Below, in pieces: positions 40,200-62,621 of a stretch of DNA of 64,000 nt. How positions within the stretch are numbered: position 1 is the stretch's first letter; the number at the start of each line of letters is the position of its first letter. This DNA comes from Asticcacaulis sp. SL142 (GTDB lineage: Bacteria; Pseudomonadota; Alphaproteobacteria; Caulobacterales; Caulobacteraceae). Made by a program: the position numbers and the translations under genes. Where the stretch lies: NCBI RefSeq assembly GCF_026625745.1, contig NZ_CP113061.1, forward strand, positions 2,753,501 through 2,817,500, in the 5' to 3' direction. The notes beneath the pieces were generated by a model. It ran no database searches. It was not told the origin of the DNA and saw nothing but the letters and a program-made list of their open reading frames with translations.

Positions 40200-40470
40200 G
40201 CTCAGTTCTCGTTTTTCTTTCGTACCTTTTTGTTTTCTTTGACGTTATCTCAAGTGAACGCACAGGTTCAAGAGTCTCGTGGCAAATATCTTCGTGAGGA
40301 TATTTTTTCTCGAACGCTTCGATTGCTAATTGAGTTGGATGAACATCAAACGCCAATTCAACAAACTGCCGCATAATGTCATCGACAATAGTGAGCAGTT
40401 CGGTCTTTTCACTTTCGCTCATATCATAGCCGTCTAGTAACGGCATGTATAACGACACGTCCAAGGTCAT
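40177..40470 (-). CDS. Small protein upstream of the recombinase
   Basis: A 97-residue acidic/helical protein without a recognised family. The ATG at 40470 has a strong AGGGGG site 8 bases upstream; a longer frame to 40602 lacks one. Its 3' end overlaps the recombinase start by 23 bases, so the two are translationally linked. It may be an accessory or directionality factor; this is a guess from position only. Confidence 0.65.
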
Positions 40471-43053: not shown

Positions 43054-44577
43054 TTACCCGCCGCGATGAAGTTTTCGCGTATCTTTCAACGCGGAATCAA
43101 GCGGACGAATTTTATAAAACGGCGTGGTGTCCGCAATCACCAAATGCGCCAGACCAGACACTTTGAGGATTTGCTTTTCCCCAAGCGCGAGAATTTGTTC
43201 CGCTTGCAAAACAGGGCGCTTGGTTTCGCTCATGCTGGCAGATGCGACCTCTAATTTGCCTCCTGAGTGATTATTCCCATGCGAGAAAATCGTCATATTG
43301 CCAGACAGCAATGTCAGGTCGCGGATGATTTCAGGCTGCGCGACATGCTTGTATGTCACGACGGCGCTTTGCTCGATAAACTCGCGTACCTCGCTTTCAC
43401 TATATTTTCCGTCGAATGAATATTTGCTCTGCGCGAACATCCAAGGCTGTACGCCGCACCCGCGATAAAGCCGTAGCGCCTTGAGCAGCGCAGGGATAGG
43501 CGGCAATTGCGGCATTTCATCTAAAAGTAGAGTGGTGGTGATTTTGCCTGTTTCATTGGCGATGGTCTCGATAATGTAATTCAGGCACAGGCTGATGAAC
43601 GGCGCAGACACGTCGATTTTGTCGCTTGGCAGGATGAACCACACTGTATGCGGCTCATGTTTCAAGCGACGAAAATCAAAATCCGTTTGCCGTGATGCAC
43701 GGTCTAACGTCTTGCCTTTTTCAAAGCTGGACAGCGCCGTCTGACAAGAACTGATATAGGCGTAAAATTGTTTGGGTACGGTTTCAAATTCAGCCTTGAG
43801 GGCGGCGGCACGCCGCGCCAATCCTTCAATGCCGCACGTCTCTAACATGGTCAGATTGAGCGCCATCTCAGCTTCGGAACAATTTGCCTTCATCCATAGA
43901 CCGCCGAGATTGCAATTCTCGACGTCAAAATGGGCAAGCCCTTCCATCCAAACAGAGAGCAAGCGCCGACCGCCATCATCCGCCCATGCGCCATCTCTCG
44001 ATTTGTAATTGCGCGGGATGAGGATGAGCGAGATTAACTCAGGCTCATTCTGAATTTCTCCGCCCGACTGGATAATGCGCGGCAGAATATCGAGCATGTT
44101 AATGCCGATGCTGGTCGTGCCGCGCACATGGTATGGGTCAATGACGATGCTTGGGATTCGAAGGGTCTTTTCGCGGTGCTCATGCGTCGCGTAATAATTT
44201 TCGCCATTCTTGGGGTCGAAGATAACGATGCTTCTATCGTCAACCAAACCGAGCGTGGGCAGAATATAGTCACGCCCTTTCCCACCGCCCGTCTTTAAAA
44301 ACGTCACAAGGGGGCTATCGCCGTTATAGCGGATGAGTTCATTTCCGAAGCCGCCGATAATGAGACCTTTATCGCCGAGCAAGCCCGCCTTCAAAAGGTC
44401 ATCTCGGTTAGCGAGCCGTCCATCGCCCAAGCGACCAGACGGCACGGCGTCTTCCATGTATTGAGCAAGGTCATCGGCACGCCGTTGCGCCGCGTCCGAT
44501 TGAAACATGCCTGATAAATTTTGATGCAGGGCAAACGTGCCCTGCATCATCGACAAAAAATTGCCGCCACGCCTCAT
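43054..44577 (-). CDS. Type IV coupling protein (TraG/VirD4-like ATPase)
   Basis: A 507-residue coupling-protein ATPase. Walker A is KTGGGKGRDYILP (residues about 92-104), Walker B is TLLLDEMPQLP (near 340), and the motor domain continues with PWMFAQSKYSFDGKY and VTYKHVAQ. Coupling proteins bring the relaxase-DNA complex to a secretion channel. This one has no N-terminal transmembrane helices, unlike canonical VirD4 and TraD. The gene start overlaps the stop of the upstream membrane-protein gene (ATGA), suggesting a split design. Confidence 0.85.
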   Translation of the reverse strand: MRRGGNFLSMMQGTFALHQNLSGMFQSDAAQRRADDLAQYMEDAVPSGRLGDGRLANRDDLLKAGLLGDKGLIIGGFGNELIRYNGDSPLVTFLKTGGGKGRDYILPTLGLVDDRSIVIFDPKNGENYYATHEHREKTLRIPSIVIDPYHVRGTTSIGINMLDILPRIIQSGGEIQNEPELISLILIPRNYKSRDGAWADDGGRRLLSVWMEGLAHFDVENCNLGGLWMKANCSEAEMALNLTMLETCGIEGLARRAAALKAEFETVPKQFYAYISSCQTALSSFEKGKTLDRASRQTDFDFRRLKHEPHTVWFILPSDKIDVSAPFISLCLNYIIETIANETGKITTTLLLDEMPQLPPIPALLKALRLYRGCGVQPWMFAQSKYSFDGKYSESEVREFIEQSAVVTYKHVAQPEIIRDLTLLSGNMTIFSHGNNHSGGKLEVASASMSETKRPVLQAEQILALGEKQILKVSGLAHLVIADTTPFYKIRPLDSALKDTRKLHRGG

Positions 44578-46060: not shown

Positions 46061-49000
46061 CTATTGGTCAGCCGTTCTGATTTTATCGTATACCTGTTTC
46101 ACCAAATGCCCTGCCGCCATGTTGCGGAATGTCGGGTCATTCATGACCTTTGCGAAAATCTCTTCATTGCCTTCCATCCTTTCGATGAAAAGCCCTTCGA
46201 GCATTTTTTCAAATACGAGGTTGAAGTTTTCCAAGCTGTTGACCTTTGCCGCATCTTGAAGCCGCTCATTCAACATCGCGGCTTCTGCGACTTGGTCGAA
46301 GAACAGTTCGTCTGCCTTAGTGAAGTCAGTTCCGAACCGTTCATTCAATCGGTCAACCAGAAGCGAGAGCTGAACCATTTCATCTTTCGCTTCCGCAGTC
46401 CCAACGTCAGTCGGTCCTTTGAGCGGGTCAGCTTCGCCTTCATTCAGGTCAATTGACCCTTCGCTGATTTTTTGTAGGCGGTAATATTGCAAGGCCACAT
46501 CGTCATCGAGCTGATAGGTTGCGCCCTCAGACCGCCTTGGCAATTTCGCAATCAAAAATCTCAAATAGGTATAAAGTTTTTCGAGGCTTGAATCCTGATA
46601 CGGAATGATTTGCGACAAGAACATATACAGGTTGCGGAAGCTGATGAGCTGTCCTTTGAAAAGTTCTTTGTCGGCATCTCCCAAAAGCTTGAATGCTTCA
46701 ACCGCGCCATCCAAGATGGCGTTCAACTGTCTGTGGTCAGTGACGCTAGGCTCCTTTCGGTTTTTGAACCAAACCTCACAGAATGCGTCGACCTCTTCAT
46801 CGGAAAAGACCTTCCATTCTTCAATCTTGTGCTGGAGCTGGTAAAGCTGTTGCGGGTCGGACATGTCACCCATAGGGGTGACTTCGTAATAGGGCTTAAA
46901 TGCCGCGTAGATATCGGCAAAGTTATTCTTGAAGTCTAAGACAAACGTGTCGTCTTTACCCGCTGTGGTTCGGTTAAGCCGTGACAGAGTTTGCACGGCT
47001 TGAATGCCCGACAATTTCTTATCGACATACATCGAATGAAGAAGAGGCTGGTCAAATCCCGTCTGATATTTTTCCGCCACCAGAAGCAGCTTATATTCGT
47101 CTCGCCCGAAAGTCTCAGGCAATGCCGTTTCTTTGACGCCATTGTTCATACCGACTTCGGTGAATTGGCTACCTGCCACGGCAGGGTCATTTACCGTGCC
47201 TGAAAACGCCACAAGCGTTTTGATGTCCGTATAGCCTTTTTCTTTGATGTAGCTATCAAACGTCAGCTTATAGCGGACAGCGTGAAGGCGCGATTCCGTC
47301 ACGACCATAGCCTTGGCGCGACCGCCAATTTTGTGGCGCGTGAAGTTCCTAAAATGCTCGGTAATCAGTTCGACCTTTTGCGCGACATTATAGGGATGCA
47401 AGCTCATAAACTTTGTCATCTCGCGCACGGCTTTTTTCTTCGGCACTTCGGGGTCGTCTTCTGCCGATTTTATCAAGCCATAGAAGGTCTTGAAGGTCGT
47501 GTAGTTCGCTAGCACATCTTTGATGAAACCTTCTTCGATAGCTTGGCGCATACTGTAATGGTGGAAAGGGGCGTGCCCGTCTTCGCTTGGCTCATTGAAG
47601 ACCGCCAGCGTTTTAAATTTAGGGGTCGCCGTAAACGCAAAGAAGCTGATGTTTGGCTGGCGCGGACGTTTTAGCATTTCCCGTAGTAGGGCTTCACGCG
47701 CTTCAGGTGATAGATTTTCCTCTTCCAAGTCATCCATCATCTGTTCGGCGATAACCGACGCAATGCCGTCCTTATTCAAAACCTTACGCAATTCCATTGC
47801 GGTTTCGCCGCTCTGCGAGCTATGGGCTTCATCGACGATGACCGCGAAGCGCTTGTTTGCCGTGTTGATTTTTATGCCTTCACCTTTTTTGTCTAAGGTG
47901 TCTAAGGCTTGGGCAATGAAGGGGAATTTCTGAACCGTTGAAATGATAATTGGCACGCCCGTTGCCAATGCCTTGGCAAGCTGTTGCGTATTCTCATCAA
48001 TCTTTTCGACCACGCCTTGCTTGTGCTCGAACTGATAGATGGTGTCTTGTAACTGCTGGTCTAGGACGCGGCGGTCAGTGATAACGATGACCGTATCAAA
48101 AATCTTATTATCCGCATCGTCATGAAGACTTGATAGGCGGTGTGTAAGCCACGCGATAGAATTTGATTTCCCCGAACCTGCCGAATGCTGGATAAGGTAA
48201 TTATGCCCAGACCCCTTGGCTTTGGTGTTGGCAATCAGTTTGCGCACAACGTCTAACTGGTGATAGCGCGGGAAAATCATCGTCTCTTTGGTGACGGTCT
48301 TAATGCCCTTGTCTGTCGGGATCTTCTTGACCTCGACCTGCAAATGCAAAAACCGTTTGAAAATATCCATCAGGCTATCGCGGGATAAAACCTCTTCCCA
48401 CAAATAGGCTGTGCGATAGTTGCCAACGACAGGCGGATTGCCAGCGCTGTGATTATTGCCCCGATTGAACGGCAAGAAATAGGTGTTTTTGCCGTCCAGT
48501 TTTGTCGTCATGTACGCCGTGTCAGGGTCAACGGCGAAATGAACAAGGGCGCGTTCTTTGAATCTGAAAATCGGCTCACGCGGGTCGCGGTCGTATTGAT
48601 ATTGCCTTTTGGCATGTTCAACCGTTTGACCCGTCATCGGATTCTTCAGTTCCAACGTGACAATGGGTAGACCATTTATCGCCAGAACCATATCAAGCGA
48701 TAGGCTAGGGTCTTTGGGGCTGAAATGCACTTGGCGCGTGATGGTCAGGCGGTTTTTGCCGTAATCGTCCCATGCGCCTTTGTTCATCCCGCTATTGGGT
48801 GCGAAGTACGCCAGCTTGAACGTCTTGCCGAAAAACTTGAACCCATGCCGCAGGACATGCAACGCCCCCTTGGCAGACAGTTCCTTGCACAGCGCGTCAA
48901 TGAGCGAGCCTTGCGCCTTGGCGCCATAGAAGGCTTTGACCGCTTCATAATTTTTGGCTTGAGTTGACTCGATAAACGCTATGACATCGGCGGGGAAAAG

Positions 49001-49108
49001 GGCGGCTTCGGCATCATACCCTTTCGCATCGCCCTTGGCGTATCCGCCCGCATTCAACAGGTGGTGTTCAATTGCATCTTCAAATCTGGCTTCGGTATGT
49101 TTGTTCAT
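46061..49108 (-). CDS. hsdR: Type I restriction enzyme R subunit
   Basis: A 1015-residue HsdR. The N-terminal endonuclease domain (residues about 10-220) has the nuclease motif with Asp in LDMVLAINGLP and TLELKNP (Glu-x-Lys). The SF2 translocase follows, with Walker A SAGSGKSNS (near 310), Walker B DEAHSSQSG, SFFAFTATPKF and the helicase C-domain EKYQTGFDQP and QTLSRLNRT. It cleaves unmodified DNA at distant sites after translocation. Full length for the family. It is last in the hsdM-hsdS-nuclease-like-hsdR operon. Confidence 0.97.
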   Translation of the reverse strand: MNKHTEARFEDAIEHHLLNAGGYAKGDAKGYDAEAALFPADVIAFIESTQAKNYEAVKAFYGAKAQGSLIDALCKELSAKGALHVLRHGFKFFGKTFKLAYFAPNSGMNKGAWDDYGKNRLTITRQVHFSPKDPSLSLDMVLAINGLPIVTLELKNPMTGQTVEHAKRQYQYDRDPREPIFRFKERALVHFAVDPDTAYMTTKLDGKNTYFLPFNRGNNHSAGNPPVVGNYRTAYLWEEVLSRDSLMDIFKRFLHLQVEVKKIPTDKGIKTVTKETMIFPRYHQLDVVRKLIANTKAKGSGHNYLIQHSAGSGKSNSIAWLTHRLSSLHDDADNKIFDTVIVITDRRVLDQQLQDTIYQFEHKQGVVEKIDENTQQLAKALATGVPIIISTVQKFPFIAQALDTLDKKGEGIKINTANKRFAVIVDEAHSSQSGETAMELRKVLNKDGIASVIAEQMMDDLEEENLSPEAREALLREMLKRPRQPNISFFAFTATPKFKTLAVFNEPSEDGHAPFHHYSMRQAIEEGFIKDVLANYTTFKTFYGLIKSAEDDPEVPKKKAVREMTKFMSLHPYNVAQKVELITEHFRNFTRHKIGGRAKAMVVTESRLHAVRYKLTFDSYIKEKGYTDIKTLVAFSGTVNDPAVAGSQFTEVGMNNGVKETALPETFGRDEYKLLLVAEKYQTGFDQPLLHSMYVDKKLSGIQAVQTLSRLNRTTAGKDDTFVLDFKNNFADIYAAFKPYYEVTPMGDMSDPQQLYQLQHKIEEWKVFSDEEVDAFCEVWFKNRKEPSVTDHRQLNAILDGAVEAFKLLGDADKELFKGQLISFRNLYMFLSQIIPYQDSSLEKLYTYLRFLIAKLPRRSEGATYQLDDDVALQYYRLQKISEGSIDLNEGEADPLKGPTDVGTAEAKDEMVQLSLLVDRLNERFGTDFTKADELFFDQVAEAAMLNERLQDAAKVNSLENFNLVFEKMLEGLFIERMEGNEEIFAKVMNDPTFRNMAAGHLVKQVYDKIRTADQ

Positions 49109-49119
49109 GCGCTTCCCCC

Positions 49120-49731
49120 CTAATTAATTGTATTTACTGTGGCATTTTCTAAGCTTGATAAGTTTACACCGTCTACGTCATCAAAAAGATAGTGTCGTAT
49201 GGATGGATACCGAGCGAGATACCGCCCCGATATATCTAAATCAGGGGCGGGGTTTTCGCACGCCGTAAACACGAACTTAGATAATTGGATGGCGTGCGTT
49301 TCGCCGAGGTATGATGAAATCAATTTGTTCAACGTACAAACCCACGCTTCAGCCGCTTTGAGTTGTAGCATAATATTATCAAGTGGAATGCGTGTTCTTG
49401 CTTCCTTGAATTCAATACAATAGGCTTTGACTTGATTGTTTATGCTTTGAAAAATTATGAAATCACACCGCTTTGACCAAGGATGGCGCTCGTCTAAAAG
49501 AAAATTATATAGTGGGTTAGAGTCTGCATCCAATTTGACCGCTAAAATATCGCCATCAAACTGAAGAACTATTTTTCTTCGTCCAGTTCTATCTTCTAGT
49601 GCCTCAGACAAAGAAATTTGATTGGGCTGCAAACTTCTTGCTTCGGCAGCCAGACAGGTTTTGCCATACTTCTCTAGTTTGAGGTGGTTTCTTAATAGGT
49701 GGATGTAACCGTCTGCATTTATCGGCATCAC
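49120..49731 (-). CDS. PD-(D/E)XK-like protein within the type I RM operon
   Basis: A 203-residue protein inserted between hsdS and hsdR, overlapping hsdS by 4 bases (ATGA) and ending 11 bases before hsdR. A PD-(D/E)XK-type core is suggested by RCDFIIFQS (Asp near residue 88) and, after a short loop, YCIEFKEA (Glu-x-Lys near 107-109), followed by a helix with QLKAAEAWV. I know no standard type I component like this. Possible roles are an auxiliary nuclease, a regulator of restriction or an independent defence gene. Confidence 0.65.
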   Translation of the reverse strand: MMPINADGYIHLLRNHLKLEKYGKTCLAAEARSLQPNQISLSEALEDRTGRRKIVLQFDGDILAVKLDADSNPLYNFLLDERHPWSKRCDFIIFQSINNQVKAYCIEFKEARTRIPLDNIMLQLKAAEAWVCTLNKLISSYLGETHAIQLSKFVFTACENPAPDLDISGRYLARYPSIRHYLFDDVDGVNLSSLENATVNTIN

Positions 49732-51065
49732 ACCACCTTTATTTTGCCAGTTACGGCATTGGTTATTAAAGATGCGCGGTATTCTTTTAGTGATGAAATA
49801 GCAGCGCCTACTAACATTTCAGCATCTGAAGTTGTTTTAAGCTCAGTTCTCAAATAGGATACAATTTTTCCTTGTTCATCGATAGGTGGCATTCCTATTC
49901 TCATTTTCATGAGGTCGCCCTGAGTAATATTCTGCATACTGCCACTTGTGCCTGTAGCGATGGAAGCGATAATTGCGCGAAATAGTTTGCTATTAAGAAA
50001 ATAGTATAAAAATGGAGCACTTGCAGTTGCATTGCGCCAGAAAATTGTTTGCCATAAGCGGTCTGGAAGAAATAAATCAGTGTAATTTTCATCCACAAGC
50101 CCAACGGCTCCGACAAGTTCTGGAGTATTCATACGGCTTATAATAAGTTCTCCCATGCGAACAGGACAAGTTAGCCTTTCCTTCTCAGATTCATCGTATA
50201 CTGTTTTGTTTTCATAGGCATTGAAGACGCCACTAAAAACAGCACTTGTCTTTAATACGCCCTGTTGACCATCCTCTTTTGAAACGTCCATGGCATTTAC
50301 GCTAACGCCACTTTCAAGCTTCATGACCGCAGTAGATATTGGCTTCACCTCCCAATGCGCGGGGATTTGACCGAGCCAGTCAATGCCAGACTCTTTCATT
50401 TGGGCGCCGGGGTTTAGCCCCTTGGTGACAGCATGGGTGATGAGGGCTGTGCGCTTTTCCGCCAAGGCTTTCAGCAAGTCCTCTTTCTTGGCAATCAGCG
50501 CGTCAATCTCAGTCGTCTTTTCATCCAAAAATGCAGCAATAGCTTTTTGTTCGGTTTGGGGTGGTGCAGTAATTGGTAATCCAACCAAATCAGTTGGGTT
50601 TATAGCTGGGTAGCTTACCCCATTTGAATAGGCGACAACTTCGCCGAGGAAGCCTTCGCTTTGCAGGCAGTAACCTAGAAAATCAGGATTTAAATTGTCA
50701 CGAGGGCGGATGACAGCAAAACCCGTTGACACAATTAGATTTTCAATTGGGTCTCTTATGGGGGCTATTGCTTTAAGATAAGTTCGAACAGTCGAAATAA
50801 TGGTGTCGCCGTCCTTGACTATTCGACGCGCTCTTGAAGGTGATTTTTCAAAAATTAGCTCTTCAACATGTTTTATGCCGCTTATCAAATCTACGCTGGA
50901 AATATCAACATAGTTAATAACCATGTCTGGTTCAGTCGTATCGCCTAACGTTTCGTCATTGAATGACGCCAAATATTTTAGACGTTTGACACCCCACCCC
51001 TCAGGAATATCCCCAAGCCAAGGCACGCCGCTATCTTTGTATCGGTCATAGGCGGGGTATTTCAT
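49728..51065 (-). CDS. hsdS: Type I restriction S (specificity) subunit
   Basis: A 445-residue HsdS with two target-recognition domains. Each begins with the hallmark WLGDIPEGWGVKRLK (residues about 17-31) and WLGQIPAHWEVKPI (about 230-243), and each is followed by a conserved helix, QKAIAAFLDEKTTEIDALI after the first. The two domains read two half-sites of the recognition sequence. It overlaps the hsdM stop by 4 bases. Confidence 0.95.
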   Translation of the reverse strand: MKYPAYDRYKDSGVPWLGDIPEGWGVKRLKYLASFNDETLGDTTEPDMVINYVDISSVDLISGIKHVEELIFEKSPSRARRIVKDGDTIISTVRTYLKAIAPIRDPIENLIVSTGFAVIRPRDNLNPDFLGYCLQSEGFLGEVVAYSNGVSYPAINPTDLVGLPITAPPQTEQKAIAAFLDEKTTEIDALIAKKEDLLKALAEKRTALITHAVTKGLNPGAQMKESGIDWLGQIPAHWEVKPISTAVMKLESGVSVNAMDVSKEDGQQGVLKTSAVFSGVFNAYENKTVYDESEKERLTCPVRMGELIISRMNTPELVGAVGLVDENYTDLFLPDRLWQTIFWRNATASAPFLYYFLNSKLFRAIIASIATGTSGSMQNITQGDLMKMRIGMPPIDEQGKIVSYLRTELKTTSDAEMLVGAAISSLKEYRASLITNAVTGKIKVV

Positions 51066-53233
51066 GCCGTAACCTTTGCCAACAGGGTAATGATTTCGGA
51101 CTCAAGCGACTTTATATCGCCTGCTATAACGTCCAACGGGCGCGGCGCTTGATAGACATAGAAATGGCGGTTGAGTGGGATTTCATACCCGACCTTCGTT
51201 TTGGTATGGTCTAACCACGCGTCCTTCACGTGCGGTAAAACTTCACGCTTCAAATAGTCTTCACAATGGTCTTTGACCAATGTTAGCAACTTTGTGTTGT
51301 CCGCCTTACTGTCATACCCAATCGGCAGGGGTAGCGCGATATTGTCGGGTAGTGGCACTAATTCCGTGTCGCGCAATTCGCTATCGGATTCAGGTCTGCC
51401 TTTGGCATCCTTGCATACATCGGCGGTGTCATCGCGTTCAGACAGCGCGTTCAAAATCGCTTTTCTCAATGGAGGTTCGAGTTTATCCGCGCCCGCTTTT
51501 TTGAAGGCAGCATTGAGCGCATTTTCAAACTGGTCTCGGTTTTTATAAAGCTTTGCGGCATCAAGTGTGTTCAGAAGGGCTAAAATTTCTGCCTGTCTGC
51601 GTTCACCTTCGGCTTGTTCTGCCTTTATCGCTTTTTCGTCTTTGCGTTTTTGGCTGGTCGCCAAATTTTTGAACGCAGTCTCAGTGTGTAAGCGCTCAAT
51701 GCGTTCAGGTGACGCTTGGAAATTAAGCTGAAGTGGGCGTTCGACTGTGATTTTCAGATAACCAAAATCTTGGTTTCTGAAAACCTTTGAAGCAATCGCT
51801 TCTTTAGGCTCATTATTGCTCTGGAATTTGGATACTGCATCATCACCGAATTCAGCATAAAGGCGGGTGATTTCATTGATATGGTCGTCGGATAATTCAT
51901 TGCGTTTATTGCCAAGGCTTTTGCGCATTTTTTGAAAATGTTTTGTGGCATCAATTAGTTGAACCTTGCCTTTGCGCTCAGGGCGTTTGCGGTTTGATAC
52001 CAGCCAGATATAGGTGAAAATGCCTGTGTTATAAAACATCTGGTCAGGCAGGGCGACTACGGCATCAAGCCAGTCATTTTCAATTATCCATCGGCGGATA
52101 TTGCTTTCGCCAGACCCAGCATCGCCCGTGAAGAGGGGCGAGCCGTTAAAGACGATGGCTATTTTAGAGCCTTCGCCGCCGCGTTCGGGGGCAGCGTGCA
52201 TTTTGGAAATCATGTGCATCAAAAACAGCAATGACCCGTCATTGATACGCGGCAGACCTGCGCCGAAACGACCATTTTCACCAAGCGTCGTGTGCTCTTT
52301 TTCAACAACGGATTGCTGTGTTTTCCATTCCACGCCAAAGGGCGGATTTGCTAACATGTAGTGAAATTTTTTCTCGGCGTGCCCATCGCCTGATTTGCCG
52401 TCGCCCAGCGTGTCGCCGAAAATGATGTTATCGACAGGCTCATCCTTAATCAGCAAATCCGCGCAACAAATGGCATAGGATTCTTCGTTATATTCCTGCC
52501 CGTAAAGGTGAAGTTCAGCCTTCTTATTGTGGTCTTTGATATATTCTTCCGAGACGGACAGCATGCCGCCTGTGCCGCAGGTCGGGTCATAAATCGTGCG
52601 GGCGATACCTGCTTTGTAAACATCCTCATCAAACGTATAAACGAGGTGCGCCATGAGGCGGATGATTTCGCGCGGGGTAAAGTGGTCTCCCGCTTCTTCA
52701 TTTGCCTGTTCATTGAACTTGCGCACAAGCTGTTCAAACACATAACCCATCGCCATGTTATCGACCGTATCAGGGTGAAGGTCGATGTCAGCGAATTCTT
52801 TGATAATCAGATAGAGGCGATTGGCGTTGTCGAGCTTTTCGATTTCTTGTTCAAATTTGAACTTGTCGAAAATCTCTTTTGCCTTCGGCGAAAAGCTATT
52901 GATGTAGGTAATAAGGTTGCGAGCGATGTTATCGGGGTCGCCCAGCAGTTTTTGGAAATCATATTTGCTGGTGTTATAAAGCGCTTGTTCTCGTTTAGGG
53001 TCAGTCTTCTTACTCAAAATTGTAGCAATTGCATCGTCGCTATGCCCCTGCGCCTTCAGCTTCTCAAATTGCTCAAGAACCTTATCCTTGGTTGGTGCAA
53101 GCACCGAGTCCATTCGGCGCAATACGGTCATCGGCAACATGACCCGCCGATATTGCGGCGGGCGATACGGACCTCGTAGCTTGTTTGCAATATTCCAAAT
53201 AAATCCAACGAGGTCTTCGTGTTTGTTCGCCAC
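51062..53233 (-). CDS. hsdM: Type I restriction M (adenine methylase) subunit
   Basis: A 723-residue HsdM. It has the N-terminal HsdM helical domain (residues 1 to about 170), the SAM-binding motif DPTCGTGGML, the catalytic NPPFG of N6-adenine methylases, and a long C-terminal extension with coiled coils. It protects the host sites recognised by HsdS. It is the first gene of the operon, divergent from ardA across a 363-base region. Confidence 0.96.
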   Translation of the reverse strand: MANKHEDLVGFIWNIANKLRGPYRPPQYRRVMLPMTVLRRMDSVLAPTKDKVLEQFEKLKAQGHSDDAIATILSKKTDPKREQALYNTSKYDFQKLLGDPDNIARNLITYINSFSPKAKEIFDKFKFEQEIEKLDNANRLYLIIKEFADIDLHPDTVDNMAMGYVFEQLVRKFNEQANEEAGDHFTPREIIRLMAHLVYTFDEDVYKAGIARTIYDPTCGTGGMLSVSEEYIKDHNKKAELHLYGQEYNEESYAICCADLLIKDEPVDNIIFGDTLGDGKSGDGHAEKKFHYMLANPPFGVEWKTQQSVVEKEHTTLGENGRFGAGLPRINDGSLLFLMHMISKMHAAPERGGEGSKIAIVFNGSPLFTGDAGSGESNIRRWIIENDWLDAVVALPDQMFYNTGIFTYIWLVSNRKRPERKGKVQLIDATKHFQKMRKSLGNKRNELSDDHINEITRLYAEFGDDAVSKFQSNNEPKEAIASKVFRNQDFGYLKITVERPLQLNFQASPERIERLHTETAFKNLATSQKRKDEKAIKAEQAEGERRQAEILALLNTLDAAKLYKNRDQFENALNAAFKKAGADKLEPPLRKAILNALSERDDTADVCKDAKGRPESDSELRDTELVPLPDNIALPLPIGYDSKADNTKLLTLVKDHCEDYLKREVLPHVKDAWLDHTKTKVGYEIPLNRHFYVYQAPRPLDVIAGDIKSLESEIITLLAKVTA

Positions 53234-54897: not shown

Positions 54898-55314
54898 CTA
54901 ACCGACGATTTCAGCGTCAGTGAAAAATTGCGCGATTTCAATCGCTGCATTTTCATCGGAGTCGGAGCCGTGAACCGAGTTCTCGCCAATTGAAAGTGCG
55001 AACAGTTTGCGGATTGTGCCGACGGGCGCTTGCTCAGGATTGGTATCACCCATAATGGCGCGGTAGCTTTTTACGGCGTCCGTGCCTTCCAAAACCTGCA
55101 CTACGACGGGCGCAGCGGTCATCTGGGCAATCAGTTCATTGAAAAATGAACGCTCCTTATGCGCACCGTAAAATTGTTCAGCCTGTGCCTTCGATAATAT
55201 CACCCGCTTCTGGGCGACAATGCGCAAACCCGTAGCTTCAATAACGGCGTTGACCGCGCCCGTCAGATTACGGCGCGTTGCGTCTGGCTTGATTATCGAG
55301 AAGGTGCGCGTCAT
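54898..55314 (-). CDS. ndk: Nucleoside diphosphate kinase
   Basis: A 138-residue Ndk that transfers phosphate between nucleoside tri- and diphosphates through a phospho-His. The active site is ENSVHGSDS (His near residue 115) and the N-terminus is [16 protein letters not shown]. It is complete but diverged in the middle ([20 protein letters not shown]). Ndk is normally a core gene; here it sits inside a mobile element. The ATG at 55314 is chosen for family fit. Confidence 0.93.
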
Positions 55315-55413
55315 TTGGTATCCTTTTAAGTCTTTCATTTGCGCGGCTTATACAGAATCCGAGCTTGATAGGCAAACGTGAAGGTCGCGAGCACCGCCAA
55401 CAATCAGCAAACC

Positions 55414-56683: not shown

Positions 56684-57745
56684 TTACCCGTTTATCAGCT
56701 TTTCCAAATCCGCCATGCCACGCATCACCGCATCAAATTCAGGTGCAGCGCCCATGAACATATCAGACATAGCGGCATAGTCTTTTTTCAAGACGGGCAA
56801 TGCGTCATCCGTTGGCAAGATTTTCAAACTGCCGATTTTCGCCGTGTCGTAAGACGCTTTGGCATCCCGCCACAGCAGGGATTTGTTTCTCACGACGTTT
56901 TCTAGCAAGGTAGGGTCGCGGAGCGCAGACTCCGCAACGCCTTTTTGCGTCAGCATGTAGGTGTCGTAGTAATGGCGCGACATGCGGTCACGCAACTTTA
57001 CGCCATGATGAAGCGAATGAAGGATGGTGGCTTTTTCCCAGAAGGTACGTTCCGCCGCCAGCGTCGAAAACTGAATCTCAGATTCAGGTAATGCGTCAGG
57101 GAAGGATTGCGCCAGATAGGGCATGAGTGAGCGCAATTCATGCGGGTCAATTTCACCGCGTGCGCCGAACTCAAGTTTGATATGCGGCTTGATATAGCCG
57201 TATTCGCCTTCGCCGAATGCGCCACGTCCAAAAGCGCCGCGCCCAAATCCCATGCCGTAATTCAGCAATTTTGGATAATAGAACAGGATGGTTTGCGCGT
57301 CAGGGTCTTCGCCATCAAGCACGACTCGCCAGCCGTCATGCGTGCCCAGTGCGGCGGCAACCACGCCCGTAATGGCGGGCAATGCCACGTCGCGCACATA
57401 GGCTTGTGCAGCCAGCTTCAAAGCCTCTGCACGGCGACCAACTTCATTCTTTGAAATGCTCGCTTCCATCGGCGAAGCCGTATCGCGCACGCACGGCGCA
57501 TCACGCCCAATAGTCAGGTCAATATCTTCTGAGAACCGCTCGATAATGCCGTAAGCTTTGGATAGCGACGTGCCGCCCTTGAAAGTGAGGTACGGGGCAA
57601 GGTCGGCATGTTCAGTCAGACGCTTGAGCGTCCAACACACCCAAAAATCTTTCTCTATGATAATGGCGGACACGTCGCGCCGACTGGCAGCTTCATTGAT
57701 GAAGACCAGTCTTTCTTCAGCGGCTTTGCGTGCAAAATTATCCAT
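56684..57745 (-). CDS. abiEii: AbiEii nucleotidyltransferase toxin
   Basis: A 353-residue AbiEii-family nucleotidyltransferase, the toxin half of type IV-like AbiE abortive-infection systems. Motif I is TFKGGTSLSKAY and the catalytic acid pair lies in FSEDIDLTIG. Near residues 165-183 is an unusual tandem Gly/Phe repeat (GFGRGAFGRGAFGEGEYG). It overlaps the antitoxin gene by 8 bases, as in other AbiE pairs. Confidence 0.88.
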   Translation of the reverse strand: MDNFARKAAEERLVFINEAASRRDVSAIIIEKDFWVCWTLKRLTEHADLAPYLTFKGGTSLSKAYGIIERFSEDIDLTIGRDAPCVRDTASPMEASISKNEVGRRAEALKLAAQAYVRDVALPAITGVVAAALGTHDGWRVVLDGEDPDAQTILFYYPKLLNYGMGFGRGAFGRGAFGEGEYGYIKPHIKLEFGARGEIDPHELRSLMPYLAQSFPDALPESEIQFSTLAAERTFWEKATILHSLHHGVKLRDRMSRHYYDTYMLTQKGVAESALRDPTLLENVVRNKSLLWRDAKASYDTAKIGSLKILPTDDALPVLKKDYAAMSDMFMGAAPEFDAVMRGMADLEKLING

Positions 57746-58346
57746 GCGCGGCAGACTCGATTTTCAAAATTACGTCCGCCATCCAACTTGGAACAACAGC
57801 CCTAGACGTGTTCAGGGCTTTCAGGTCACGGCTATCTAAACGCTTGGCGCAGCGCTTAATCATATCCGCGTCGATATTGTCTTTGCCGAGATAGGATAAG
57901 GCTTGCAGCGTGTAATTCACCTGTGCAGGGGCATTGACCAATATGGGTACGCGGGCATGTTTGAAGGTCAGGGTGCGACCTGCAATCTTGCGCACTTTCG
58001 ATGCGCCATTGGTCAGGTAGCTTGGCTTTGCGGGCACTTGTGTCGAAAGTCCCAAATAGTTTGCCGCCATCGCGCCTGATGGAAAAACTTTATCGCCCGT
58101 TTTAGCAGAGACCGCATCGGCAATGCTGTCCGCGTCAGGCGATAGCGTCCCAAGCACCGCATGTTGCTTGGGGTAATCGTAAAGTCCTCTATCCAAACGC
58201 CGTATCATCCCCTTGCGGGCGAGGCGGGATAGGGTTTGGTCAATGGCAGCCCGCGACCCAAAATCCAGAAAGTCTTTAGGCGTAAAGACCCAGCCGCGCT
58301 GCTTGGCGCGGATTTTACGGGCGATTTTGTCGGTTATGGCGGTCAT
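57738..58346 (-). CDS. abiEi: AbiEi-type antitoxin/regulator (DUF6088-like)
   Basis: A 202-residue antitoxin partner. The N-terminal winged-helix domain (residues about 15-75, including SRAAIDQTLSRLARKGMIRR and LYDYP) binds the promoter and neutralises the toxin's expression. The C-terminal part has the family segment LTNGASKVRKIAGRTLTFKH. The upstream inverted repeat overlapping the promoter fits autoregulation. Confidence 0.88.
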   Translation of the reverse strand: MTAITDKIARKIRAKQRGWVFTPKDFLDFGSRAAIDQTLSRLARKGMIRRLDRGLYDYPKQHAVLGTLSPDADSIADAVSAKTGDKVFPSGAMAANYLGLSTQVPAKPSYLTNGASKVRKIAGRTLTFKHARVPILVNAPAQVNYTLQALSYLGKDNIDADMIKRCAKRLDSRDLKALNTSRAVVPSWMADVILKIESAAHG

Positions 58347-58440: not shown

Positions 58441-59802
58441 CTAGCCTAAATCTAACCCTTTTTCCTTTGACCTAGTGCCCACGTCTCGACCACGGCTTGC
58501 CCCGCGTTCGGAGCCTCTTTCACGCCCAGAGCCGCGCTCTAAACTTTCGCGCATTTCGGGCAGTTCACCCGCTTGCATGAGGCGGTAATGCGCCGCGTCT
58601 TTGTAGAGCGCGAGAATCTGCTTTGCCTCACGTTCGCGGGTCAGGCGTATTTTATCCTGTAATTCGCGCCGCTCTTTCATTTGCGCGATGACCAAATCAT
58701 CGCGTTGCTTGCGGTCGCGTTGAAGGCAGAAATATGCCTCCACCTCATTCTGCTTTTTGATTTTGCCGTGTTCACCGCGCAATTTATCCCAAACGCCCTT
58801 GATGCCCGTGGAGAGGCGAGCAGCGCGTTCTTTCACCTCATTCTCATGGCGTGCCTTTTGACCTGCATCGAGCTTTTGACGCTCAAGCTGGTGCTGGATT
58901 TTCATGGCATGGCGTTGCTCATGCAAAGGCTTCATCTGGTTTGCCGCCAGACGCTTTGCCTCTTGGATATAGGCAGACAGGCGCGGCGCTATATTCGCCG
59001 CTATATGCGCTTTAGTTTCCGCGACAGTGTTTAAGGTCTCAGACGAACCCAGCTTTGCGGTTACGTCTTTGCCGCGTTTTTTGATAACGCGGGCAACAGA
59101 TAAAACTTCTCCACTATGTGTCACGACGACATGCAGACGATTATCGTTTTTATCGAGGCTTTTATCACCCTTGGCGAGGAACAGCCCGCGCTCCTCCAAA
59201 GCCTTCGAAAAGGCTTGCACGCCGTCAGATGCAGACCAACATTCCTGAATAATCGCCTTAAGGTCTTTGGCGCTTTCACCCGAACGCTTTGCTTGTTGCC
59301 ATTCGGCAAGGGTAAAATTGCGCGGGTCGCGCTCTTGAGAGTTCACAAACCCACGCGGCATTTGCCAGCCGTTTTCAAGGTAAAGCTGCTTTGAGATTTC
59401 GCGCAGCGTGTTTTTGAAGAAGGACAAATTCTTCGCCGTCATGGTGTCGGCATCAATGCGCGACCATACGCAATGCGCATGGCGACGACCTTCTTTTTCA
59501 TGGAACACGACCATACGCGGCTGGTCTTTTAATCCCAGCCGCTCTTCAATCATATTGAGCGCATGTTCAAACACCTCAACCCGAACAGACTCGGTTTGAG
59601 GCGGATTGAGCGACACAGAAAACAAGGGCTGCTGACACCTCGTGCCCTTCGTAATGATTTCAATCTCGCTCATCGCGCCGAGTATGTCTTGGGATATGAA
59701 TCCTTTGACCTCATGCAACTCGACATGCTCGTTGTCTTCGCCATTGAGGATATGTATCCCCAGCGCCCGCGTGCCTGAGCGTTGCGAAGCCTTCAAAATC
59801 AT
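58441..59802 (-). CDS. Relaxase/mobilization nuclease (MobA type)
   Basis: A 453-residue relaxase that nicks the transfer origin. The N-terminal domain has the histidine motif GRRHAHCVWSRID (near residue 107), with putative catalytic Tyr upstream. A long charged coiled-coil follows (QHQLERQKLDAGQKARHENE), and the C-terminus is Arg/Gly-rich. The gene starts in a 4-base overlap with the mobC stop. No secretion channel is encoded nearby, so transfer would need help. Confidence 0.85.
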   Translation of the reverse strand: MILKASQRSGTRALGIHILNGEDNEHVELHEVKGFISQDILGAMSEIEIITKGTRCQQPLFSVSLNPPQTESVRVEVFEHALNMIEERLGLKDQPRMVVFHEKEGRRHAHCVWSRIDADTMTAKNLSFFKNTLREISKQLYLENGWQMPRGFVNSQERDPRNFTLAEWQQAKRSGESAKDLKAIIQECWSASDGVQAFSKALEERGLFLAKGDKSLDKNDNRLHVVVTHSGEVLSVARVIKKRGKDVTAKLGSSETLNTVAETKAHIAANIAPRLSAYIQEAKRLAANQMKPLHEQRHAMKIQHQLERQKLDAGQKARHENEVKERAARLSTGIKGVWDKLRGEHGKIKKQNEVEAYFCLQRDRKQRDDLVIAQMKERRELQDKIRLTREREAKQILALYKDAAHYRLMQAGELPEMRESLERGSGRERGSERGASRGRDVGTRSKEKGLDLG

Positions 59803-60185
59803 GGCTCACACTTAAAGCCACAGGCTTTCTTAAAGTCAGTGAGCGTCCCATTTATATGGTCGCAAGTTTCCCTTAATGCCGCTTCTGTATCTGGCGTAAC
59901 CTCAAGCGCCCCCTGATTAGCCAGACGCGCCAACTGGTTTAGGTTTGAGGCGTAATGCGTTTGCCCAAGTCGCGCAAAAACCCGTGATAAAGCCGTTTCG
60001 TCTTTTATCGGGTTTCTGCGTCTCCCGACTGGTGGAGCAGCATTGTTGTCAATGTAGTATCGGACGCAAAAGCGTATGAAGTCGCTTTCAGACATGTCTC
60101 CACGGTAAAGCTCAACATTCTCATTTTCATCGCGCGGAAAGCGCACAGACTTTGGATAAATGATTTCAGATTTATCACGCGGCAC
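59799..60185 (-). CDS. MobC-like relaxosome protein
   Basis: A 128-residue relaxosome accessory protein. The N-terminal ribbon-helix-helix region (SVRFPRDENENVELY) binds DNA, and the conserved MobC segment LGQTHYASNLNQLARLANQG lies near residues 72-91. Translation begins with GTG at 60185, 11 bases inside the preceding frame. It would sit between the circular-form recombinase and the relaxase. Confidence 0.85.
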   Translation of the reverse strand: MPRDKSEIIYPKSVRFPRDENENVELYRGDMSESDFIRFCVRYYIDNNAAPPVGRRRNPIKDETALSRVFARLGQTHYASNLNQLARLANQGALEVTPDTEAALRETCDHINGTLTDFKKACGFKCEP

Positions 60186-60393
60186 GTGAATTCCCTTTTC
60201 TCAAATGACGGCGGGTCACTCTCTTTTGACCTGCCGACGTTTGATTTGCGGGGGGAACATCACCCTCTAAGGCATCGGAATCCGAAGCGTTTGAAGGCTC
60301 GCCTAATACCAGCGATGTGGATTTGAGAACGTAGTGCCATTCCTCTAAAACTGCGAATAAATCGTTTGATTGCACACCATCAAGGTGCGCCAT
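60175..60393 (-). CDS. Displaced 3' end of the recombinase gene (circular form)
   Basis: An open frame of 72 residues beginning exactly at the right repeat copy (MAHLDGVQSNDLF...VTRRHLRKGNSRAA). It is in the same codon phase relative to the 10-bp repeat as the recombinase at the left end, which there reads MAHPTGF. Joining the two ends gives a 578-residue recombinase whose stop overlaps mobC by 11 bases. The frame is open upstream to 60495, but those residues are host side and not gene-like. The assignment is inference. Confidence 0.6.
   Translation of the reverse strand: MAHLDGVQSNDLFAVLEEWHYVLKSTSLVLGEPSNASDSDALEGDVPPANQTSAGQKRVTRRHLRKGNSRAA
60384..60393. repeat. Right attachment repeat (attR core)
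   Basis: GGTGCGCCAT, identical and direct to the tRNA-Arg end. It is followed by AATCCTTAAGGATT, a 14-base palindrome that would be the original sequence flanking tRNA-Arg. Confidence 0.55.
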
Positions 60394-60573
60394 AATCCTT
60401 AAGGATTTGCGGCGATTTCGGAAACTAGTGATTATCGCCCACGGAAGCGCTACGGAAGCGGCACGATGGAAATCTAAGCTATCCAACGGTATCAATCTTT
60501 CTAAATTTAGCTCCTCAGAAGATAGAGGTAGTCGAAGTTAGCGTACATTAGTCGGCCTATGAGCCTGCTGGGC

Positions 60574-61509
60574 TTACTTATCTTGATGGTACGAAGAAAG
60601 ATGGGTCTGTCGCAGATCGTTGATGTGCGCCGCGTGGGCGGTCATGTACGCCATTGCGCTTTCCAGATGCTCACCCAGCATAAACACACCTGGCAACGGC
60701 CTATGCGGACGGCTTAACTTATCAGCTAGTTCCCATCCCGCTCGGCGCTTTACCAAGCCTCCTTCAAGGATGAACATCAAATCCCCAACGACCCGCGCCA
60801 TTTTGGCCGGATGAATGCCTGCGGATTTCATAAACTGCCGAAGCACTGGGTGATGATCAATGAAACTCCGGGCGACCTGTCCGCCAATCCGGGTGAACTG
60901 ATCCACGGCATAGGTTGGTATCCCGCCGACCATTTGAACTGGCGGCATTACGTCAGTGGTTTCGATGGCATCCGGCCCGGAGATAAATGGCTCCCAAACC
61001 AAGGGTAGAAGTAACGACATAGGATTACGGGTCAGCTTCCATCCGGCGTGTGCGGTAACAATCACATGACTGTCGTTGCTCATTAAGCCCAACGTACCGA
61101 AAATCGCATCCGGGAACCGGCAATGCTGTTCTTCTGCCAAGCCCCCACCCAGCGCCAAGGCCGCGACCGCTCGATGTTCAATAGGGTTGCCTACCTCTGC
61201 CAGTGCTTTTACCAAATCCCTACACTCGGCTTCAAGCATATCAACCCGCAGCAATTCATCGGTTGGGTTGTTTAGGGCAGTCATTAGCAGGTCACAGGCC
61301 GCTTGGCATTTCAGGTCTTCGGCAATCTGCTTCACAAGGAATGAAGCGACCCGCCATTCTCCGCCCATCTTAGTCCGCCATCTGCGGTTCCTACCAGCGG
61401 CGATGACGCGCGACACCGTATCAATTCCGGCCACCCCTAAGTCCTCAATAACTATGACGCCTAAGTGTCGCCAGATGGCGGCGGGGTCTTGATTGAGCAG
61501 TGATGCCAA
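60574..61509 (-). CDS. Hypothetical protein, possible 5' frameshift
   Basis: A 311-residue protein of unknown function. The visible start is a TTG (61509), but conserved-looking residues (DKGIALSALASLLNQDP) continue upstream in frame to a TAA, without an ATG. The upstream gene runs through the same bases in another frame. Either the start is non-canonical or a frameshift has split one longer gene. Notable segments are IWRHLGVIVIEDLGVAG and WRTKMGGEWRVASFLV, which recall a class of uncharacterised alphaproteobacterial proteins. Confidence 0.55.
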   Translation of the reverse strand: MASLLNQDPAAIWRHLGVIVIEDLGVAGIDTVSRVIAAGRNRRWRTKMGGEWRVASFLVKQIAEDLKCQAACDLLMTALNNPTDELLRVDMLEAECRDLVKALAEVGNPIEHRAVAALALGGGLAEEQHCRFPDAIFGTLGLMSNDSHVIVTAHAGWKLTRNPMSLLLPLVWEPFISGPDAIETTDVMPPVQMVGGIPTYAVDQFTRIGGQVARSFIDHHPVLRQFMKSAGIHPAKMARVVGDLMFILEGGLVKRRAGWELADKLSRPHRPLPGVFMLGEHLESAMAYMTAHAAHINDLRQTHLSSYHQDK

Positions 61510-62042
61510 GGCGGATAGTGCAATACCTTTATCGGTTTCATGAGTTGATCGGCCTTAGCACTGGCCCTATCGACCACGGCGCGGATTTCCGGGTCTTGAT
61601 ACATATCTGTGCCGGTAGTGTTCGCCCTGATCGTATCCAGCGCCCGCATAGGGATGCCTTCGTCAATCTCAGCATTTGCCTGCGCCAACATCTGAGTGCG
61701 GGACAGCCCCGTCTTAACAGGAGGTAAGAAGGCCATTTTGATCGCTTCGTCAGCCAGGGCTTGGCCGTCCTCAGCTATAAGGGCCGCTTTTGTGTCTGAG
61801 AACACCCGCGACAGTTCCGTTTGCGCCTCAATCTCTGCCAACGTAAAGTTGCTCGATAAAGCCGTTAGTGCCTTATCGGGCAGTCGATCAGCTAATGCCC
61901 TTCTGGCCTCAACCACAACATCAAGTGGTTTGGCTTTCCTCGTGATCGCCGCCCCCTCTGGCGTGGGGCGACTGTTTATTGCCACAAACCCCACGCTGCC
62001 CAGAACTAATAATACTGTGCCACCAATCGCAGCCCAGACCAT
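61461..62042 (-). CDS. Single-pass membrane protein, hypothetical
   Basis: A 193-residue protein with an N-terminal transmembrane helix (IGGTVLLVLGSVGFVAI) and a helical remainder. The last about 20 residues overlap the next gene and look unlike the rest, consistent with a frameshift near 61530. It overlaps the upstream small gene by 37 bases. Confidence 0.55.
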   Translation of the reverse strand: MVWAAIGGTVLLVLGSVGFVAINSRPTPEGAAITRKAKPLDVVVEARRALADRLPDKALTALSSNFTLAEIEAQTELSRVFSDTKAALIAEDGQALADEAIKMAFLPPVKTGLSRTQMLAQANAEIDEGIPMRALDTIRANTTGTDMYQDPEIRAVVDRASAKADQLMKPIKVLHYPPWHHCSIKTPPPSGDT

Positions 62043-62263
62043 AGGGCGTTATAGATTTCTTCCTGAAGACACTCTGGAACATTCACCACTACACACATCC
62101 TGTCTATGAAAGGAGTAGGGTAAGTTATCTGGCTATCTTTGGCGGGAGTTTCGGCCTTGTTAGAGGGGGTGGCATCTGGAGGCGTGAAATCGGACTCATT
62201 TGCGAGCTTGGTGTCAACCTTGGCCGGTTTTACCGCTGTATCGAAATTGAACTTGACGGGCAC
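62006..62263 (-). CDS. Hypothetical 85-residue protein
   Basis: A GTG-started 85-residue frame with AAGGGGG upstream. The N-terminus is Lys/Thr/Pro-rich, and the C-terminal part contains DRMCVVVNVPECLQEEIYN. I recognise no family. It lies 20 bases after the integrase-like fragment and overlaps the membrane-protein gene. Confidence 0.45.
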   Translation of the reverse strand: MPVKFNFDTAVKPAKVDTKLANESDFTPPDATPSNKAETPAKDSQITYPTPFIDRMCVVVNVPECLQEEIYNALWSGLRLVAQYY

Positions 62264-62283
62264 CTTAGTTGCCCCCTTTCAGG

Positions 62284-62451
62284 CTATCGATACCTTAGTG
62301 CGAGGGGCCTAGCTGTTTTAAGTGTGAACGATCCTAGTGATCGCCTCACTTCTGACAAGCCAAGCCGCTCACGAAGAGAATTAGGAACGCGGACGCGGAT
62401 GTAGTACATACCGTTTCGTCTTGATAGGTGGGAAGAATTGCTACCGGTCAT
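62284..62451 (-). CDS. DUF6538-like integrase N-terminal fragment
   Basis: A 55-residue frame (SSHLSRRNGMYYIRVRVPNS then RERLGLSEVRRSLGSF) that closely resembles the N-terminal arm-binding domain of phage-type tyrosine recombinases (DUF6538). It ends at a TAG where full integrases continue for some 350 residues, so it is a remnant or a stand-alone DNA-binding protein. It sits 170 bases from the 3' end of tRNA-Ser, the usual place for an integrase. Confidence 0.6.
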   Translation of the reverse strand: MTGSNSSHLSRRNGMYYIRVRVPNSLRERLGLSEVRRSLGSFTLKTARPLALRYR

Positions 62452-62511
62452 CCGGCCAAACCCGACTCAGGCGTTGAAAACGCCGACCTGATATTCCGAC
62501 TTGCTCCGAGG

Positions 62512-62546
62512 TGTGGAGCAGCGTTGTGGAGCACCATTGTGGACCA
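62512..62546. repeat. Three 13-bp-spaced direct repeats
   Basis: TGTGGAGCA (62512-62520), TGTGGAGCA (62525-62533) and TGTGGACCA (62538-62546) recur at an exact 13-base period, between the integrase-like fragment and tRNA-Ser. They resemble arm-type or iteron-like protein-binding sites. Confidence 0.5.
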
Positions 62547-62621
62547 GTAGCGCTTTGAGCCGGTTCCACATGGCTTAAGGTCTTGTAAGACCTTAATGAT
62601 ATCAGGGGGTGATAAAGGGAG

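Follow-up and report, generated by a model that had tools for sequence, protein, structure and literature searches.

The window analysed here, a stretch of 64,000 nucleotides from Asticcacaulis sp. SL142, contains a mobilizable element of 21,712 bp (38682-60393) adjoining the 3' end of a tRNA-Arg(CCG) gene. Most likely, it is an integrative and mobilizable element (IME) whose recombinase gene spans its own attP. Judged from the reading frames of its relatives, the tails encoded at the far ends of the elements, one joined gene in a phage contig and the overlap with mobC, integration removes a conserved C-terminus from the recombinase and cuts an operon. On the same grounds, the string recombinase-tail-mobC-relaxase is whole only in the predicted circle. 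The explanation taken as a whole, with an attP spanned by the gene, a swap of recombinase tails and an unlinking of the mobilization genes upon integration, is considered probable; the ends of the element, its empty site, the frame rule, the conserved tail, the order and overlap of the mobilization genes and one natural joined gene can be read directly from the sequences.

The Element and Its Empty Site

The two boundaries of the element are copies of GGTGCGCCAT, located at 38672-38681 on the tRNA side (attL) and at 60384-60393 at the far end (attR). The left copy corresponds to the 3' end of the tRNA-Arg(CCG) gene (38604-38680, plus strand, called by ARAGORN) followed by one T; a third copy lies at 52645, inside hsdM. 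In G020, a genome of the same genus, the site is empty: the same tRNA gene, intact, is directly followed by DNA matching the window to the right of 60384 (38 bp at 95% identity, BLAST). Direct comparison gives 78 identical bases out of 78 over the tRNA and the T, and 29 out of 36 to the right of the junction. Because G020 has this empty site, the ends of the element are those of an insertion and the far end is correctly placed; a chance repeat is ruled out as an explanation of the ends. In the window, the host sequence found next to the tRNA at the empty site is 60394-60421, which starts with the palindrome AATCCTTAAGGATT. The GC content of the element is 0.484, compared with 0.57 in its left flank. 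Further right, about 2.2 kb (60422-62617), up to a tRNA-Ser(CGA) gene, have no counterpart by BLAST at the equivalent locus of G020. This segment, which holds two minus-strand ORFs without assigned family (60574-61509 and 61461-62042), reflects either another insertion event or a loss from G020.

The element has its own site-specific recombinase, defined att ends and a relaxase, which are among the features of an IME. A type IV secretion coupling protein of the VirD4/TraG type is encoded at 43054-44577 (minus strand; Pfam, below the cutoff in NCBIfam), and no mating-pore protein was seen in the part of the element ORFs scanned with Pfam and NCBIfam. The cargo includes type I restriction-modification genes (R, an unassigned ORF, S and M; 46061-53233, minus strand) and an AbiEi/AbiEii-like toxin-antitoxin pair (56684-58346, minus strand), both identified with Pfam. 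The element also carries a gene for an ArdA-like protein and a second Ndk (nucleoside diphosphate kinase) gene (54898-55338, minus strand), which is 81% identical to another copy in this genome. Upstream of the recombinase gene, and overlapping its start by 23 bp, a gene for a 97-residue protein (40177-40470, minus strand) gives no Pfam or NCBIfam match. A terminator-like site is located above it, and a similar gene precedes the recombinase in 55 of the 115 loci pooled below. Its product is a candidate cofactor or recombination directionality factor.

A Recombinase Gene With Two Predicted Ends

In the integrated element, the recombinase is read from a single ORF of 555 codons (38532-40199, minus strand). 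The element itself encodes 506 of these (38682-40199), and the homology with relatives ends there. They specify a large serine recombinase with a catalytic domain (Pfam Resolvase, PF00239, E=1.5e-23) and a zinc ribbon (Zn_ribbon_recom, PF13408, E=1.4e-09); the Recombinase domain PF07508 has no Pfam match in the window protein and a value of 0.0024, below the cutoff, in its relative of the phage contig L190. The last 49 codons and the stop (38532-38681) are made up of the core and of the antisense strand of the tRNA gene. When the ends of the element are joined, the frame crosses the junction, predicted to code for ...QMEMAHLDGVQSN..., and continues from 60393 down to 60175 into a tail of 72 codons, giving a protein of 506 + 72 = 578 residues. 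The preliminary description of this DNA had read both end copies as ATG GCG CAC in the recombinase frame, on the minus strand, and had proposed that circularization exchanges 49 host-derived residues, encoded in an open frame through the antisense tRNA, for 72 element-derived ones; the ORF, the computed joined frame and the codon counts agree with it on every point.

Recombinases showing 35-51% identity to that of the window occur in other members of the order. Fourteen of the 16 strong relatives were taken in (G047:C4 and G057:C12 were left out). Beyond the recombinase, a tRNA gene was called in 13 of them and a partial one in G043, and the recombinase ORF enters it in 14/14. A scan of GTDB contigs gave at least 467 relatives of any strength, from which 80 named loci were kept. 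Those listed belong mostly to Alphaproteobacteria, with Gamma- and Betaproteobacteria and MAGs, the titles of which (Nitrospirales, Nitrospinia, Bacteroidetes, Polarisedimenticolaceae) may reflect mis-binning. Together with the window, the 14 strong relatives and 20 further order-level elements, they form a pool of 115 loci. A tRNA is called at the recombinase end in 94 of them, including 63 of the 80 named loci, and the other 21 are without a call. The tRNA types are Arg (60), Leu (9), Ser (7), Thr (7), Val (3), Ala (3), Met (2), Glu (2), and Lys (1).

In all of the 94 tRNA-called loci, which are related to one another and hence not independent, the frame in which the recombinase enters the tRNA is the same, and the 40 codons before it are free of stops. 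Five of the tRNA-called named loci (L097, L112, L115, L137, and L140) contain a stop at a more upstream position of the gene. At the core, the codon is NTG without exception (ATG in 83 loci, GTG in 6, and TTG in 5). Moreover, truncated or broken members of the family recur (L031 in G002, L037 in G051, and order-level loci with partial matches or stops), which suggests decay after integration.

Conservation of the Tail at the Far Attachment Copy

At the far core copy of the window, the tail peptide is MAHLDGVQSNDLFAVLEEW; its counterparts in relatives are MAHSGPEISNELFEVLADW (G060), MAHLGGESSNTLFDILAQW (G158), MAENLEDSSNELFETLEEW (G172), and LVPPDGVDLNTLFDELALI (G188). Far ends were compared in 23 elements, namely the 19 tRNA-called ones whose available upstream sequence exceeds 14 kb and 4 without a tRNA call. 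A tail ORF is present at the far core copy in 20 of the 23, and 17 share a motif near SNxLFxxLxxW. Within the tRNA-called set, the motif is strict in 15 cases, a variant was accepted by eye in 3 (G016, G236, and G056b) and no recognizable tail was seen in G125. Among the remaining 4, G084a (near-identical to G158) and G420 have a tail, and none was recognized in G043 and G271. The conserved segment probably forms an amphipathic helix and, in the window, conservation is confined to the first 25 or so codons.

This search looked at the predicted frame only, and two controls are independent of the frame. First, the motif was counted at core copies of at least 7 bases. It occurs at 17 of 461 in the predicted strand and frame and at 0 of 2305 in the other five frames, compared with 234 of 1,212,303 positions having fewer than 5 core bases. 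L066 and G110, being the same contig, were counted once here by leaving out L066, which is kept in the tRNA-type and frame counts. Second, 385 genomes of the class were scanned in six frames with a profile of the joined C-terminus that had been derived from the window and order-level tails. Its two halves match separately. Both were found on 13 contigs (12 besides that of the window). In 13/13 they share a strand, the tail half being the upstream one, at spacings of 1.7-39 kb, of which the two smallest (G578 and G749 C58) probably represent remnants; the class matches G529 and G550 are near-copies of G158. No match extends through both halves in the 385 genomes. The widest cover positions 1-54 (G749 C13) and 19-74, the latter at the window's own attR, where the pre-core positions fall on host DNA. 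Circular permutation by integration predicts such split halves, in this order and on one strand.

The codon pattern of the motif suggests that it is under purifying selection. For 72 pairs of tails selected on DNA identity, which share members and are in many cases saturated, the pooled pN/pS of codons 4-25 is 0.50 in the tail frame vs. 0.81 and 1.39 in the shifted frames, and the differences at codon positions 1, 2, and 3 number 530, 387, and 749. Values of 0.00-0.45 were obtained for 10 distinct pairs chosen by protein identity, a choice that biases them downward, and the recognition of tails by a motif in one frame also favors low pN/pS. Taken together with the far-end matches, the tail is, on present sequence data, a conserved C-terminus of the recombinase that integration would remove.

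A Naturally Joined Gene

A search for recombinases with a similar ending, as envisaged in the preliminary description, leads to the far-end tails described above and to one natural joined gene. The IMG/VR contig L190 (27 kb) carries an uninterrupted joined integrase of 533 residues ending in SVLRGFSDTNSVLVDISGESSNSFLDILRNWSDALNPYKSTLLAA, with no tRNA after it. The neighboring genes (replication initiation, neck, terminase, and portal) are those of a phage. When the C-termini of ten integrated elements are joined artificially, the L190 protein aligns with them through the junction and into the tail, at 27-41% identity. Its AlphaFold2 model (pLDDT 81, pTM 0.41) is that of a serine integrase with a helical tail, residues 490-533 being below pLDDT 50. 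In a Foldseek search, the model matches 9dxh with an E value of 3.6e-18, as well as 9iu2 and 9rah, and the top ranks are complexes of the SPbeta, Bxb1, and phiC31 integrases. As modeled, this relative would have the whole-length fold of solved serine integrases.

L190 is the only intact natural joined gene found, and none was found in an IME. Of 14 viral loci, only L190 is joined; L184 has no readable tail and the other 12 end in tRNA-like or other sequence. A scan of viral contigs with the L190 protein returned its own contig only, and the same scan with the window protein returned nothing. Against plasmids, the joined window protein gave 116 records, all below 60% identity; among the best 40 of these, the sole place with more than 80% coverage is 25% identical, and the matches in Tritonibacter and Devosia plasmids are partial. 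Against phages, the joined C-terminus gave nothing at E 0.01 and, when a tRNA-Met-targeting relative was used, no Paracoccus phage appeared among the best 60 of 411. Separately, L037 (G051) is a broken chromosomal recombinase remnant with one in-frame TGA, in which the joined tail follows without an intervening tRNA.

The Mobilization Genes

The tail ORF is followed by a MobC-like gene with a GTG start (59799-60185, minus strand), which has homologs at the same place in relatives and a Pfam MobC score below the cutoff, and then by a relaxase gene of the MobA/VirD2 type (58441-59802, minus strand; PF03432). The tail stop (60175-60177) overlaps the start of the MobC-like gene by 11 bases, and the latter overlaps the relaxase gene by 4 bp, exactly as first described. 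The order recombinase-attP-tail-mobC-relaxase put forward in the preliminary description is upheld by the comparative data; the role of the tail as a conserved part of the recombinase had been overlooked.

Among 20 far ends examined for mobilization genes, the tail stop overlaps a mobC homolog in 14. The overlap is 4 bp long in 12 of them, 11 bp in the window and 8 bp in G096 (where, as in G158, it was read by hand from an internal ATG). In G016, mobC lies 107 bp after the tail, and in the remaining 5 none is beside it; the relaxase ORF of G110 is a fragment of 153 codons. Twenty loci found independently, with the tail profile, give a similar picture: in 10, the tail stop and the next ORF overlap by 4 bp, and all of these have a relaxase further along. 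By BLAST, the ORF next to the tail resembles the window MobC in 8 of them, the exceptions being G620 and G801. mobC is found 103 bp after the tail in G545 and is not beside the tail in 9 of the 20; in G428 a relaxase match occurs about 3.5 kb further on, and G578 has no readable tail. The window thus differs from the usual 4-bp ATGA overlap by its 11 bp and its GTG start. Inside its tail ORF, near mobC, an inverted repeat of 10 bp around an 8-base loop (60209-60236) could belong to an oriT or be a terminator-like hairpin.

Do the mobilization genes depend on the recombinase frame for their expression? They may have their own promoter, or be reached by host read-through in the integrated state, in which case the switch would concern the recombinase tail only. 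Read-through into mobC is possible from the minus-strand ORF 60574-61509, upstream of attR. No sigma-70-like promoter was found in 59700-60700, and such a scan, limited to sigma-70, is weak evidence. However, the overlap between the tail stop and the next start, in 14/20 and 10/20 far ends, suggests coupling to the upstream frame, and independent expression is regarded as possible but rather unlikely. Because host read-through from 60574-61509 is possible, silence of the mobilization genes in the integrated state is a weaker part of the explanation than the recombinase tail. Their expression before excision may be low, and it is plausible that the transfer functions are confined to the excised form.

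Conversely, the tail ORF could be merely a leader of the mobilization operon, started at the NTG of the core, into which the recombinase runs without functional meaning. An invariable NTG is able to start translation, and the frequent 4-bp overlap with mobC would suit such a leader. Nevertheless, a recombinase that is in frame and free of stops in 94/94 loci would then be needless. Moreover, the tail is kept without an adjacent mobC in G373, G236, L120, and L140 and ends the integrase of the L190 phage. Such a pure leader appears improbable and is counted as rejected. The presence of the tail in L190 and in elements without mobilization genes indicates that the switch concerns the recombinase first, and the mobilization genes in addition.

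Two further readings compete with this explanation. In one, the integrated form is the functional one, its antisense T-arm peptide being kept in frame by selection. A GFEP-like segment is indeed found in 87 of the 94 integrated tails, but it follows from the conserved T-arm of the tRNA itself, 7 of the 94 are without it and the conserved far-end tail is left unexplained, which makes this reading very unlikely. In the other, named for the Dehalococcoides recombinase DsiB in the available part of PMC3146451, the recombinase simply has no stop before attP and its C-terminal variation is of no consequence; integrated tails do range from 4 residues (L100) to more than 100, with almost immediate stops inside the tRNA in G047d and L100, yet the far-end motif conserved in one frame only and the lower pN/pS in that frame leave trivial read-through with hardly any credit.

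Proposed Mechanism

With attP spanned by the recombinase gene, the circle would encode a full-length recombinase (506 + 72 residues) ending in the short conserved segment. The same gene would form the upstream part of an overlapping string recombinase-tail-mobC-relaxase, yielding a linked mobilization message. When the circle recombines into a tRNA gene, at its 3' end, the frame would be cut at the core. In the integrated copy, the tail of the recombinase would be swapped for an antisense-tRNA peptide, and mobC-relaxase would be left without the upstream promoter and without coupled translation. We infer that the tail matters for integration or for the direction of recombination, in keeping with its being conserved and being lost when the element integrates. 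By analogy, the tailless form could plausibly excise the element, because the altered integrase of the Myxococcus phage Mx8 stays active (PMC6070905, available part).

Comparison With Known Systems

The catalytic domain, zinc ribbon, and coiled coil of the window family are shared with the integrases of SPbeta (YokA), Bxb1, phiC31, A118, and TP901-1. Two family members show about 20-28% identity with phage integrases among the matches listed. To our knowledge, none of these characterized large serine integrases has been reported to have an attP-spanning gene or a tRNA target. Mx8 IntP and the integrase of Tn916, both compared below, are tyrosine recombinases.

For what follows, the sources are cited for the parts available. 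The closest precedent is DsiB, encoded by ssrA islands of Dehalococcoides, whose gene always overlaps attL without a stop before it and which its authors suggest may attain full function only in the circular form (PMC3146451, 2011). Unlike the window family, DsiB targets tmRNA (ssrA) and has a partner, DsiA; the section on DsiB shows no conserved far-end tail, joined gene or mobilization operon (PMC3146451). The int gene of phage Mx8 contains attP and acquires a different 3' end upon integration, with a change in the specificity of the integrase; in contrast to the window element, this concerns a single phage without a mobilization operon (PMC6070905). Mx8 and SSV are also the examples of attP-crossing integrases given in the Islander paper (PMC4383910, 2014). 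In Tn916, the conjugation genes are expressed only once the circle joins the promoters of one end to the genes of the opposite end (PMC9632896, citing Celli and Trieu-Cuot, 1998). There, transcriptional read-through acts alone, without a joined protein (PMC9632896), and for the window element a comparable dependence is suggested by gene order and overlap.

IMEs with serine recombinases combine an integrase, a relaxase and short direct repeats, as the window element does. Unlike it, however, the serine-type IMEs described insert within genes, and the tRNA-targeting rows are of the Tyr type (PMC5704250). The Paracoccus phage vB_PamS_Pami6, an alphaproteobacterial phage with a serine recombinase and a predicted tRNA-Met target, resembles the window family, and its attP-int arrangement is not described in the available part of PMC6536676. 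Nor do the available parts of PMC5882170, PMC11476347, and PMC12884075 describe the present arrangement. No description of a tRNA-targeting family with a conserved split tail and mobC coupling was found in the literature covered, which included few subscription papers. As far as this literature goes, integrases crossing attP, circle-dependent transfer genes and the suggestion made for DsiB were already known, and the tRNA-targeting family, the split tail and the mobC coupling are new.

Implications

Annotation of an integrated copy yields a protein with an antisense-tRNA peptide at its end. Integrases of this family that are mined from genomes would consequently be cloned with a wrong C-terminus. 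The natural tail-plus and tail-minus forms of one enzyme also offer a simple test of the control of direction in serine integrases. More tentatively, and with somewhat less than even confidence, it can be proposed that widespread tRNA-targeting large serine recombinases use gene topology as a directionality switch: the enzyme of the circle, with its C-terminal helix, would integrate, and the form with the antisense-tRNA peptide would hold or excise. The translationally coupled mobC-relaxase would be disconnected by the same cut. If this is true, the direction of recombination and the competence for transfer would change together.
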